Below are positions 60,385-64,000 of a DNA stretch of 64,000 bases, piece after piece. The stretch is from Haloarchaeobius amylolyticus (GTDB taxonomy: Archaea; Halobacteriota; Halobacteria; Halobacteriales; Natrialbaceae). Under the pieces are notes generated by a model. That model had not been told where the DNA came from, ran no database searches, and saw only the letters and a list, made by a program, of their open reading frames with translations. A program made the translations under genes and the position numbers. The first letter of the stretch is position 1. Each line of letters begins with the position of its first letter. The stretch is from positions 186,001-250,000 of the forward strand of contig NZ_JANHDH010000004.1 of assembly GCF_026616195.1 (NCBI RefSeq), written 5' to 3'.

Positions 60385-62349
60385 GTAAGTTCTCTGTACT
60401 GACCAGTCAGATGAGTTCTTGAGCGAGTCCTGTCCAGTGTTTCGTAGTGTCTCAGACTCGTGATTCTCGGCGAGCAGTCTTTCGGAGAATTGCCCGGCAA
60501 TCATACACTCAGTGGCCTGTATACGATTCGACGCCGCTGTACGAGCGAAGCTCGCTCGACGGGCTGGAATCAGATATCAGAATCGTCTCGCAGACCTGGT
60601 TCAGACACGACCGCCATGAGTCGATCGAGAACTTCGCTTGTGCACTTCCGCTGGCGTATTTCGAATTCGGTACGCACGACCGCTACGGGGGGTCGACTCA
60701 CTACGAGATGGACACGCTCTTTCGTGTATTCTTGCTGAAAGAGCTCCACGGATGGGCCCACGAAACCGCACTGATCGAGTATCTCGAGTGCCGTCCAGCA
60801 CTCTGCGACCAACTGGATCTGGAGACAGTGCCGGACCAATCGACGCTGTGGCGTAGTTGGCACAAACGGTTTCCTGACGAGTTTCGCAGTACAGTCGAGA
60901 CAGCCGCGCGCACTATCCTTGTCAAAGCTCAGAACGCGGATGTCGCTGTTCCACGCGAACCAGAGCGGCGTCTTCCGTCTCACGATGCGGAAGAGGACGA
61001 ATTAGAGCTAGAGGATCAAGCTGTCCTCAACGAAGCGGAAACGATCACGGAGCATGTCAGCCGTATCGTCTTCCCGGCGCTTTCGCTGGATCGTGGGGAC
61101 GGCTGTGAAATCCACGAGAACGCCTACTGGGACTTACAGACGTACCTGGGGCTTCGCGAGAGATTGGCTGCTAATGAAGGGGCTCGCAGTTTCGTCTACG
61201 AATCGACTCGGGATCGGACGCCGTTGGGCCACGCCCACCGAGAGCATATTCGTGATCTTTCAGTATCAGGGATCCGCAAGATGTACCGACAGGCCGTCAA
61301 CAGGCTCCTAAGCGAAGTCGCGGAGACGGAGCAATTCTTTCGAGCTGGCATCGTCGCTATTGACATCACCGAAGCTGACCCGTTCACCGGTGATAGAACG
61401 GGCTATGAAGACGAGATCATCGGCACGAAAGAGAAGACCGACGAGTACGCCTACCAGTGGGCTACCATCCAGTTAGTTGGTAATGCAGTTCCGATTGTAC
61501 TGGACGTGCGGCCAGTTCAGAAGGGAGAGTCCCGCCTAGAAATCGTCAAGGACCTCTTGGATTCTGCTGAGGAGATGGTACACGTCGATAACGTGCTGAT
61601 GGATCGGGAGTTCGACAGTCAGCACGTCCTAGAGATGCTCAGCCAGCGTGGCTTGTCGTATGTCGTGCCCAAGCGGATGCAGACCAGCGAGAAAGCCCAG
61701 GCGAAGCGATTGCTCCAGCGGGACCAGGATCGGTACGAGACTGACCGCAAACTACATCTCGGGAAGAATGAGTGGCACGAGACGACGCTAATCTATCGTC
61801 GAAAAGAAGACTCAGAGCACGACGACCATCGACAATATTCGGTGTTCATGACGAATTGCGGGAGTGGTCACCTCACGGAGTACGGCTATCGCTGGGAGAT
61901 CGAGAGTGGGTACAGGTCGATCAAACGGTTCATGGCGGCGACGACGTCGAAGGATTTTGGGCTTCGCTTCTTTTACTTCGCGTTTGCGTGTCTGCTGTAC
62001 TCGATCTGGCGCGCTGTTGATTTGCTGGTACAGGTCGAGTTGACCGGTGAGTATGAACATTCGCCGATCGTAACGGCCGACAACACGCTTACGCTGTTGA
62101 AGAAGGAAACCGGCATCGGATAGCGAAGATATCTAACCGTGGTAGCGCGATGTCTGAGTGGCTACACTACCCGCGGTCTCGGAAACATCCCGGATGAGTT
62201 GACTATCCAACTATAACGTCCGGCCAGAAAGCGATCTGAATCAGTTTCTGGTCATCGATTCGGCCGAAACCACGCATCACAGCCCCGCTAATCCCGCTGT
62301 AGTCTCAACTTCCCCGCCTCACAGAAGTTGAGACTGCAGTACCCAATGC
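60385..62349 (+). mobile_element. IS4-type insertion sequence, copy 2
   Basis: Left end near TGTACTGACCAGTCAGATG (60395); the right-end hairpin AGTCTCAACTT at 62301-62311 and AAGTTGAGACT at 62325-62335, followed by CCCAATGCA near 62349. The pattern matches copy 1. Exact ends and target duplication could not be fixed by eye. Confidence 0.65.
60447..62123 (+). CDS. IS4-superfamily DDE transposase, copy 2
   Basis: 558 residues from GTG at 60447, the same length as copy 1. The catalytic half is nearly identical (IVAIDITEADPFTGDRTG; VLMDREFDSQHV; YGYRWEIESGYRSIKRFM), whereas the N-terminal third differs at many sites (MSQTRDSRRAVFRRIARQ against MAATCESQRTVFRRIAQQ). The three DDE residues and the YREK signature are intact, so it should be functional. 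It is inserted between the enolase-like gene and the HTH-10 regulator. Confidence 0.88.
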   Translation: MSQTRDSRRAVFRRIARQSYTQWPVYDSTPLYERSSLDGLESDIRIVSQTWFRHDRHESIENFACALPLAYFEFGTHDRYGGSTHYEMDTLFRVFLLKELHGWAHETALIEYLECRPALCDQLDLETVPDQSTLWRSWHKRFPDEFRSTVETAARTILVKAQNADVAVPREPERRLPSHDAEEDELELEDQAVLNEAETITEHVSRIVFPALSLDRGDGCEIHENAYWDLQTYLGLRERLAANEGARSFVYESTRDRTPLGHAHREHIRDLSVSGIRKMYRQAVNRLLSEVAETEQFFRAGIVAIDITEADPFTGDRTGYEDEIIGTKEKTDEYAYQWATIQLVGNAVPIVLDVRPVQKGESRLEIVKDLLDSAEEMVHVDNVLMDREFDSQHVLEMLSQRGLSYVVPKRMQTSEKAQAKRLLQRDQDRYETDRKLHLGKNEWHETTLIYRRKEDSEHDDHRQYSVFMTNCGSGHLTEYGYRWEIESGYRSIKRFMAATTSKDFGLRFFYFAFACLLYSIWRAVDLLVQVELTGEYEHSPIVTADNTLTLLKKETGIG

Positions 62350-62644: not shown

Positions 62645-63313
62645 ATGGCTACCGAGGCGACGTTTACAGTCCCACCCGACGAGTTCCCCCTAGGGACGAT
62701 CTTCGAGTCTGTGCCGGGCGTGACGGTCGAACTGGAGCGCATCGTCCCACGCGAAGACGTGATCATCCCGTACTTCTGGGTGCGGGGCGTCCATATCGAC
62801 GACGTGGAGGCAGTCTTTTCACCTCATCCCGGTGTGAAGGATATTCGACCGATAGACTCCATCGATGACGAATACCTCTTGCGCGTCGAGTGGGACCCAA
62901 AGTACGAAGGAATACTCAGCACGCTCGGCGAGACGGGAGTACCACTCATCACGGCGATCGGCACGAACGACCGGTGGACCTTCGAGATCCGCGGAGACCA
63001 GCAAAGCGATATCGCCACGTTTCAGCAGCGGTGCCGAGAACGCGGCATCCCGGTGACGCTGACGGCCCTGCACGCGCTGACGCCGGTCGAGACTGCCACC
63101 GAGGCCGCACTCACCGATTCCCAGCTGGAGGCGCTGGTGCTGGCGTACGAACGTGGCTACTTCAACTCGCCGCGCGACGTGACGATGGCCGAACTGGGAG
63201 AGGAACTCGGAATCTCACAACAGGCGATCGCTTCTCGCCTCCGGCGTGGTACCCGCAATATTCTCGGTCAGACCCTCACCGCCCTGGTGGGTGACGTCCA
63301 ACGGTATAAATAA
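62645..63313 (+). CDS. HTH-10 (bacterio-opsin-activator-like) regulator 2
   Basis: A 222-residue regulator. The C-terminal HTH-10 (LTDSQLEALVLAYERGYFNS, then TMAELGEELGISQQAIASRL, LRRGTRNILGQTL) follows an N-terminal 150-residue sensor half of the Bat type (TFTVPPDEFPLGTIFESVPG, then VRGVHIDDVEAVFSPHPGVK). It is the second such regulator in the window and lies upstream of a kinase with the same HTH type. Confidence 0.85.
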   Translation: MATEATFTVPPDEFPLGTIFESVPGVTVELERIVPREDVIIPYFWVRGVHIDDVEAVFSPHPGVKDIRPIDSIDDEYLLRVEWDPKYEGILSTLGETGVPLITAIGTNDRWTFEIRGDQQSDIATFQQRCRERGIPVTLTALHALTPVETATEAALTDSQLEALVLAYERGYFNSPRDVTMAELGEELGISQQAIASRLRRGTRNILGQTLTALVGDVQRYK

Positions 63314-63408
63314 GGATTGTATAAACAAAAGCCAGGGTGAACCGGGGCCGTCCGCTACTGGACAGCAGAGCCAACCAAGACTGATTGCGCAACGAGGCTC
63401 GTCACAAA

Positions 63409-64000
63409 ATGACTGAAAAAAAAAACCACCGGTAGACGAGTTCGACCCACCCGCAGAACAGCGGCCCAACGCGTTGACGCGTTGACCGCAGCGGAACGCG
63501 AGACGCTTCGAGTTGCGCTCTCGAAGGGCTACTTCGAGGTCCCGAGGCAGACGCCCCTCGTCGACATCGCCGAGGAACTCGGCCGGTCAGACGTTGAGAC
63601 CTCACGACACATCCAGCGTGGAATGGGAACCGTTCTGCGGGCGACGAACGCCCTGGAGGGGAGTGCAAGTGGGGCTGATTGCCCCAGTGAGAGCGCAGTG
63701 GGTAGCGTAGAAGAGGCGACCGACGCAACCGAACGCGAACGACAGCTACAACGTCGAGTCGAGCAACTCGACCGGTTCGCGAGCGTCCTCAGTCACGACC
63801 TCCGGAACCCGTTGAACACCGCCAAGATGAGCCTCGAACTGGCCCGCGAGGACCCCGAGTCTGTCGAGAGCCATCACGAGCGTATCGAACAGTCACTTGA
63901 CCGTATCGACGAACTCGTGACCTCGTTGTTGCTCCTGGCCCGCGAAGGGCAGGTCGTCAGCGACTTCGAGACTGTCTCACTCACCGAGACCGCAGCGCGA
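63409..64000 (+). CDS. HTH-10 plus histidine kinase (partial, start separated by a 10-A tract)
   Basis: The body frame runs open to the window edge. It has an HTH-10-like domain (LTAAERETLRVALSKGYFEV, then DIAEELGRSDVETSRHIQRG), a linker, and a HisKA domain (DRFASVLSHDLRNPLNTAKM, the H-box) cut by the edge. The only good ATG in reach, at 63409, is in another frame: ATG ACT GAA followed by ten A in total leads to TAG at 63433. Nine A would join the ATG to the body. So either the A-tract is a sequencing error, or slippage sets the frame. DNA-binding and kinase domains in one chain are unusual. Confidence 0.6.

Follow-up and report, generated by a model that had tools for sequence, protein, structure and literature searches.

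A run of ten A directly behind a start codon in Haloarchaeobius amylolyticus leaves that start in a different reading frame from the HTH_10/histidine kinase gene that follows. The statement best supported by the sequence is that this frameshift probably arose by slippage and that a single additional slip would bring the gene into frame. A further reading, which we hold only tentatively, is that the gene is a young chimera whose frameshifted 5' end represents the OFF state of a recent contingency-like switch. A broken gene, a start further downstream or a miscount of the run accounts for the observations almost equally well. The gene lies at the end of the window, the whole stretch of 64,000 nucleotides that was analysed (positions 186001-250000 of contig C4, in a genome of 4,608,248 bases and six contigs). 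The features of the region are as follows.

60447-62123, plus strand: transposase gene (DDE_Tnp_1/DUF772), left flank.
62645-63313, plus strand: intact gene for a BAT + HTH_10 transcription regulator of 222 aa (Pfam PF15915, PF04967).
63409-63435, plus strand: ATG-started frame with ten A, read directly; homologous ATG in L059, L060 (alignment) and L064.
63416-63425, plus strand: ten-A run, a slippage-prone tract (sequence reading, run counts, shuffles).
63426-63468, plus strand: linker PPVDEFDPPAEQRP, apparently coding in an ancestral (third) frame (codon log-odds; match to relatives).
63469-63486, plus strand: 8-bp tandem duplication, ACGCGTTG x 2.25, the second frame-shifting change (TRF and period scan).
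63482-64000 and on to C4:250381, plus strand: HTH_10-HisKA-HATPase_c frame, 299 aa from TTG 63482.
63485-63634, plus strand: HTH_10 domain, residues 2-51 (Pfam PF04967, E = 2.1e-11).
63767-63946, plus strand: HisKA domain, residues 96-155 (Pfam PF00512, E = 8.7e-15).
Beyond the window end, plus strand: HATPase_c domain, residues 197-295 (Pfam PF02518, E = 2.6e-19).

After the ATG (63409-63411), direct reading gives ACT G and then exactly ten A, the tract starting seven bases after the A of the ATG. The earlier note had called a ten-A run in this position conspicuous, and the counts bear this out. The window has one such run, whereas shuffled sequences have 0.01 on average (one was present in 1 of 100 shuffles), and the next longest A run in the window is 6. 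On both strands of the whole genome there are only two A runs of at least 8, each exactly 10 long. The other one, at C4:67798, looks like a terminator: read on the opposite strand, it is a T run that directly follows a gene encoded there, which we take to be copper-protein-like.

With ten A, the product of the ATG is eight codons long (MTEKKNHR) and ends at TAG 63433-63435, just as the earlier note had it. The kinase frame lies one base off the ATG frame. It is open from 63413, behind a stop at TGA 63410-63412, and contains no ATG, GTG or TTG upstream of TTG 63482. Thus, a homopolymer long enough to slip stands within the 5' coding region, and a change of one unit in its length toggles the full-length frame: by frame arithmetic, the loss of one A would connect the ATG with the kinase. 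A GAGG at 63394-63397 precedes the ATG, a weak signal by our own reading.

Other roles for the tract were considered. The ATG frame contains A_AAA_AAC in phase, presumably a slippery motif, but a -1 ribosomal frameshift would enter the linker frame, with a TGA at 63483-63485, and not the kinase; it was rejected. A minus-strand terminator was likewise rejected: one weak match (63451-63431) with a partial T run was found, against a shuffle mean of 1.5, and no gene that it would serve was seen. A scan with a sigma-70 promoter model, which is not suited to archaea, gave no match.

Is the tract an old feature of this locus? The downstream start was read in eight of 52 distinct BAT-HTH_10 loci (L059, L060, L064, L065, L066, L070, L072 and L141), chosen for a far-reaching or high-scoring match. 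At L065, L066, L070 and L072 the gene in this place is unrelated or unalignable, and these loci were excluded from the tract comparison. A comparable start is present in the other four, Haloarcula pelagica (L059), Haloplanus rubicundus (L060), L064 and L141. Their products begin M-[TA]-E-K, and their start-proximal A runs, of 6, 6, 7 and 8 bases, all leave the start in frame with the sequence behind them, so a slippery length is not kept among the four relatives. The context of the tract, searched with 6-14 bases between fixed ends, is absent from viral contigs. No second copy of the locus was found among the matches listed, none of which, apart from the window's own, extends past query base 746 (window 63345).

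In L060 and L064 the start runs straight into an HTH_10 homologous to that of the window (59% and 58% identity), although that of L064 scores 16.9 bits, below the Pfam cut-off of 23.1. Across L060, L064 and L108 the identity of this domain to the window's is 58-64%. The HTH_10 is followed by DUF7344 in L060, L064 and L151 according to Pfam, and in L108 by reading. L108 and L151 (Halorarius halobius) encode an HTH_10-DUF7344 protein with neither this BAT gene ahead of it nor an A run. In L141, DUF7344 comes directly after the start (Pfam). The HTH_10 is missing from L059, where reading from the homologous start gives 57 codons (L059:5810-5983) and then a stop that overlaps the ATG of an annotated DUF7344 gene; this locus seems to lose and swap domains.

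The comparison also indicates how the frame was lost. In the alignment, A6-C-A of the relatives stands opposite the ten A of the window. By our own reading this amounts to a single C-to-A substitution plus the gain of two bases, so that the tract is two bases longer than an in-frame 8. The second change is the duplication of ACGCGTTG, which stands between the linker and the HTH, 43 bases beyond the A run. One copy of ACGCGTTG fits the frame of the relatives; the duplication was not seen in L060 and L059, where the alignment is gapped, nor, by reading, in L064. The net shift in the window is 2 + 8 = 10 bases, one out of frame. The earlier note had placed the interruption at 63409-63480, which is the right region, although its right-hand limit cuts through the duplication.

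The linker between the two changes matches the relatives in a third frame (PPVDEFDPPAEQRPNAL), distinct from both the ATG frame and the kinase frame. In this frame the window reads KKPPVDEFDPPAEQRPNAL, compared with MAEKTPAVDEPDQ in L060, MTEKNSPVDESDQ in L064 and MTEKTPPVNESGQ in L059, matching the PAVDEPDQ, SPVDESDQ and PPVNESGQ of these relatives. Codon statistics from 29 mechanically chosen ORFs of the window give the linker a log-odds of +1.6 in the third frame, -6.1 in the kinase frame and -8.9 in the ATG frame with ten A. For in-frame stretches of 42 bases from the same ORFs the median is 5.1 and the 5% point -0.9, and the 95% points of their two wrong frames are 1.0 and 0.8. The third-frame codons are thus coding-like, which points to a linker that was coding until recently. 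The claim of the earlier note that nine A would join the ATG to an HTH_10/kinase holds in its arithmetic: with nine A the two shifts sum to 1 + 8 = 9 bases and the gene opens, the linker then being read as TTGRRVRPTRRTAAQRVD. It does not hold as the ancestral reading, judged by the relatives and the codon statistics.

What does the gene encode? Both catalytic domains of a histidine kinase, HisKA and HATPase_c, are present with their conserved residues, and the 299-codon frame has no internal stop. The earlier note spoke of a sensor kinase, a term that the domain search does not bear out: Pfam finds no PAS, GAF or other N-terminal sensor domain, and only the HTH_10 precedes HisKA. Nor does the kinase have the make-up of a Bat-type regulator, as its HTH_10 is N-terminal and Pfam finds no BAT. 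The HTH_10, whose match in the TTG product covers profile positions 2-51 of 53, is of the kind found in HTH_10-DUF7344 regulators. From about residue 73, the protein is 61% identical to a kinase of the same genus (L020, PAS-type by reading), and the similarity starts at the linker preceding the HisKA of L020. The gene therefore looks, from its sequence, like a chimera of an HTH_10 and the transmitter half of a PAS-type kinase.

The kinase domain is not visibly decaying at the sequence level. In a leave-one-out test against 46 homologues from the loci examined (stop-bearing, partially covering and identical sequences having been excluded), the window kinase keeps 42 of 43 columns with a conservation of 95% or more and departs at one. 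Among the 47 sequences, including that of the window, 27 depart at none of the columns, 14 at one, five at two and one at three.

The fusion has no close parallel in the material searched. The kinase matches listed, apart from the window's own, begin at residue 20 or later, the one in G055 at residue 20, and no orthologue of the exact fusion gene is among them. In a plasmid search, the top match among the best 30 of 2441 records (H1) begins at residue 11 and is a receiver-PAS-kinase without HTH_10; 51 plasmid records have a place that covers at least 80% of the kinase query. The joined kinase has no match in viral contigs, and a search of the contigs of genomes with the kinase gave nine loci, all with remote kinases of 23-33% identity. 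When 20 loci with an HTH frame were read out, none continued into a kinase: 13 end at most 13 residues past the HTH, three enter a DUF7344-type stretch and four have acidic tails. No other HTH_10-kinase fusion was found among the matches listed and these 20 loci, which are not a census. A 2018 census of archaeal two-component systems has a passage that describes HTH_10 in response regulators, as REC-PAS-GAF-BAT-HTH_10 (PMC5847659).

Some other kinase loci of this genome have peculiarities of their own. Of its 17 counted kinase matches, two are listed with an internal TGA (G000:C1:33766-34446 and C1:978982-979674). At L002, in the G000:C1:1735083 region, a GAF-type kinase (by reading) stands behind in-frame VVEPDDYE repeats.

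The gene upstream of the kinase encodes a Bat-type regulator, with a BAT domain followed by a C-terminal HTH_10. Its protein is 85-89% identical to those of L060, L059, L064 and L141, yet the gene and its locus have no match at E <= 1e-25 in any of the five other genomes of the genus. This distribution suggests that the locus was gained by horizontal transfer. A second transposase lies behind the kinase (L009:4005-5681) in the same orientation as the first. The two transposase genes, each of 558 aa and 74% identical over 1.6 kb, flank the pair of BAT-HTH_10 and kinase genes, an arrangement that may be a composite mobile unit.

A conserved element, TTGTATA-NNN-AAAA (window 63319-63332), lies a short way past the stop codon of the BAT-HTH_10 gene. 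Exact TTGTATA is found behind these genes in 28 of the 52 distinct loci, with near-misses by eye in many others, and in none of 52 control stretches of equal length inside the gene. The element is also present where the next gene differs, and could therefore serve the regulator's own circuit as a promoter or operator.

How, then, is the interrupted frame to be understood? If the tract acts as a switch, a ten-A run that is presumably unstable in replication would now and then lose one A or gain two. After either change, the combined shift of tract and duplication would be divisible by three, and the ATG would thereby be connected to the kinase. Ahead of the HTH fold, the linker would then be translated in a foreign frame, which is probably tolerated. 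The sequenced state with ten A would be OFF, the switch would be of recent origin, and it would determine the number of cells that produce a soluble DNA-binding kinase without a sensor. Reversible switching of the kinase by the tract is something that we infer from the sequence, and the locus may be a contingency locus of an archaeon. A linker with two shifts is also what a decaying gene would be expected to show, and this counts against a switch; with the duplication, the history of the gene resembles damage no less than design. A young pseudogene, that is, a chimeric kinase gene flanked by mobile elements that lost its frame through two indels, with the A run as a scar, is somewhat unlikely in our judgement. 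The two frame-shifting changes lie within 71 bases of each other, the reading frame of the relatives is lost, transposases stand on both sides and the locus is missing from the five other genomes of the genus. The two TGA-bearing kinase matches likewise favour decay, and other damaged kinases may exist in this genome. Against a pseudogene stand the stop-free frame, the conserved kinase columns and the nearly complete HTH_10 match, although the intact downstream frame says only that the damage is recent or that the protein is still made. The gene may never have been important, since it lies between two transposases and is a recent chimera of domains.

The remaining explanations leave the kinase expressed, each by a different route. 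Homopolymers are a common place for assembly errors of one base, and the true tract could be nine A long, with the gene intact and a +1 change in the tract compensating the 8-bp duplication. The cancelling of the two shifts at nine A, the good conservation of the kinase and a similar case in genome G392, one base off at a nine-A run, favour a miscount; it is nonetheless distinctly unlikely, given that the tract is ten in the only copy found and that the nine-A product would carry a foreign-frame linker of poor codon quality. Improbable, too, is constitutive expression from TTG 63482 with the ATG and the tract in a 5' leader. A start there would keep almost all of the HTH_10, and the loss of the upstream frame would cost nothing; in favour of a downstream start in general, the annotation of the H. 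rubicundus gene begins at a GTG that lies seven codons past the ATG and corresponds to GTA in the window. The earlier note had raised the possibility that all relatives use a downstream start, yet in L060, L064, L108 and L151 the position of the TTG is occupied by an ordinary leucine codon (CTG or CTA). By our own reading, which is weak on this point, no Shine-Dalgarno-like run precedes the TTG, whereas the ATG has its GAGG, and the codons of the third-frame linker still look coding. To our knowledge, nothing is known of slippage by haloarchaeal RNA polymerase, and a literature search found no report of it. This makes it very improbable that the gene is rescued at the RNA level, by a polymerase that slips on the ten A so that some mRNAs with nine A give the kinase, even though the tract is long enough. 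In bacteria, such slippage has been described at nine-A runs, and disrupted genes with runs of this length could be restored in the mRNA, according to a passage in PMC1088944.

A survey of the pattern ATGNNNG-A9 places the frameshift, and the switch that we tentatively read from it, in a wider setting. The pattern occurs at three places in 382 genomes of the order, the window among them, and a control with the reversed pattern gave none in the same genomes. The second case is this one:

G392:C11:522784-522799, minus strand: start-proximal poly(A) frameshift, L152, ATGACAG-A9.

With nine A, this ATG meets a stop after 28 codons. A frame of 346 codons lies one base off it, starting at the tract, and its phase is reached with ten or seven A. 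By our own reading this frame carries a Tat-type (twin-arginine-like) signal; Pfam gives no match. A homologue in Halorussus vallis (29% identity) has a frame unbroken through its own RR signal, with an annotated start further downstream. The G392 gene was found in only one of 15 genomes of its own genus. At the third place (L153) no phase holds a long frame, and A9 tracts at a start therefore occur also without a gene. Thus, at two of the three places the long frame that follows is off by one, and at none is a following long frame in phase, a pattern that fits equally with switching genes, broken genes and miscounted runs. The wider proposal that haloarchaea carry rare start-proximal poly(A) contingency genes, with the kinase off at ten and on at nine A and the exported protein of G392 off at nine, is an unlikely one on present evidence.

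Slipped-strand phase variation has been described mainly for host-dwelling bacteria, and searches of a collection of open-licence papers showed no homopolymer-switched archaeal gene. A passage of PMC2831843 reports that runs of 8 A are over-represented in the coding genes of four of 18 archaeal genomes, and that in only one are A or T runs of 8 and of 9 both over-represented. In a 2025 review, a passage on archaea looks forward to archaeal data (PMC11868660). If the tract does switch the kinase, an archaeal signalling protein would be subject to simple-sequence phase variation, in a genome otherwise nearly free of long A runs. With a poly(A) switch close to a kinase start in a free-living halophile, bet-hedging away from hosts could be put to a direct test. 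Should the tract be no more than a scar, the locus would still be a clear case of domain reshuffling, in which the HTH_10 of a DUF7344-type regulator was joined to a kinase.

Start-proximal poly(A) frameshifts are known from bacteria, and the closest likeness is to Listeria inlA, where a one-base change in a 5' poly(A) tract near the start gives an eight-residue product, as in the window, and to Bacillus subtilis swrA, where a 5'-proximal poly(A) tract in a comparable position switches the gene (both in passages of PMC2831843). In contrast to inlA, the archaeal gene encodes a kinase, needs a second indel to explain its frame and, in the one copy found, has shown no variation in tract length; swrA is called phase variable in the same source, whereas for the window the likeness is one of anatomy. 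In the dnaX gene of Thermus and in IS-element genes a run of at least nine A stands at a frame junction, as it does in the window, but the passage describing them places the slippage in RNA and not in DNA (PMC1088944).

A two-component system has its own bacterial precedent in Bordetella pertussis, where the frameshift reportedly lies in a poly-C tract inside bvgS, so that both tract and position differ from those of the window. Frameshift phase variation of that system (Stibitz 1989, as cited in PMC11868660) concerns the same type of gene system, in a bacterium. Also similar are the HTH_10-DUF7344 regulators, which share the HTH_10 module with the window, L060 and L064 sharing also the locus and the start. 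They differ in carrying DUF7344 where the window has HisKA-HATPase_c, and those of L108 and L151 stand at other loci.
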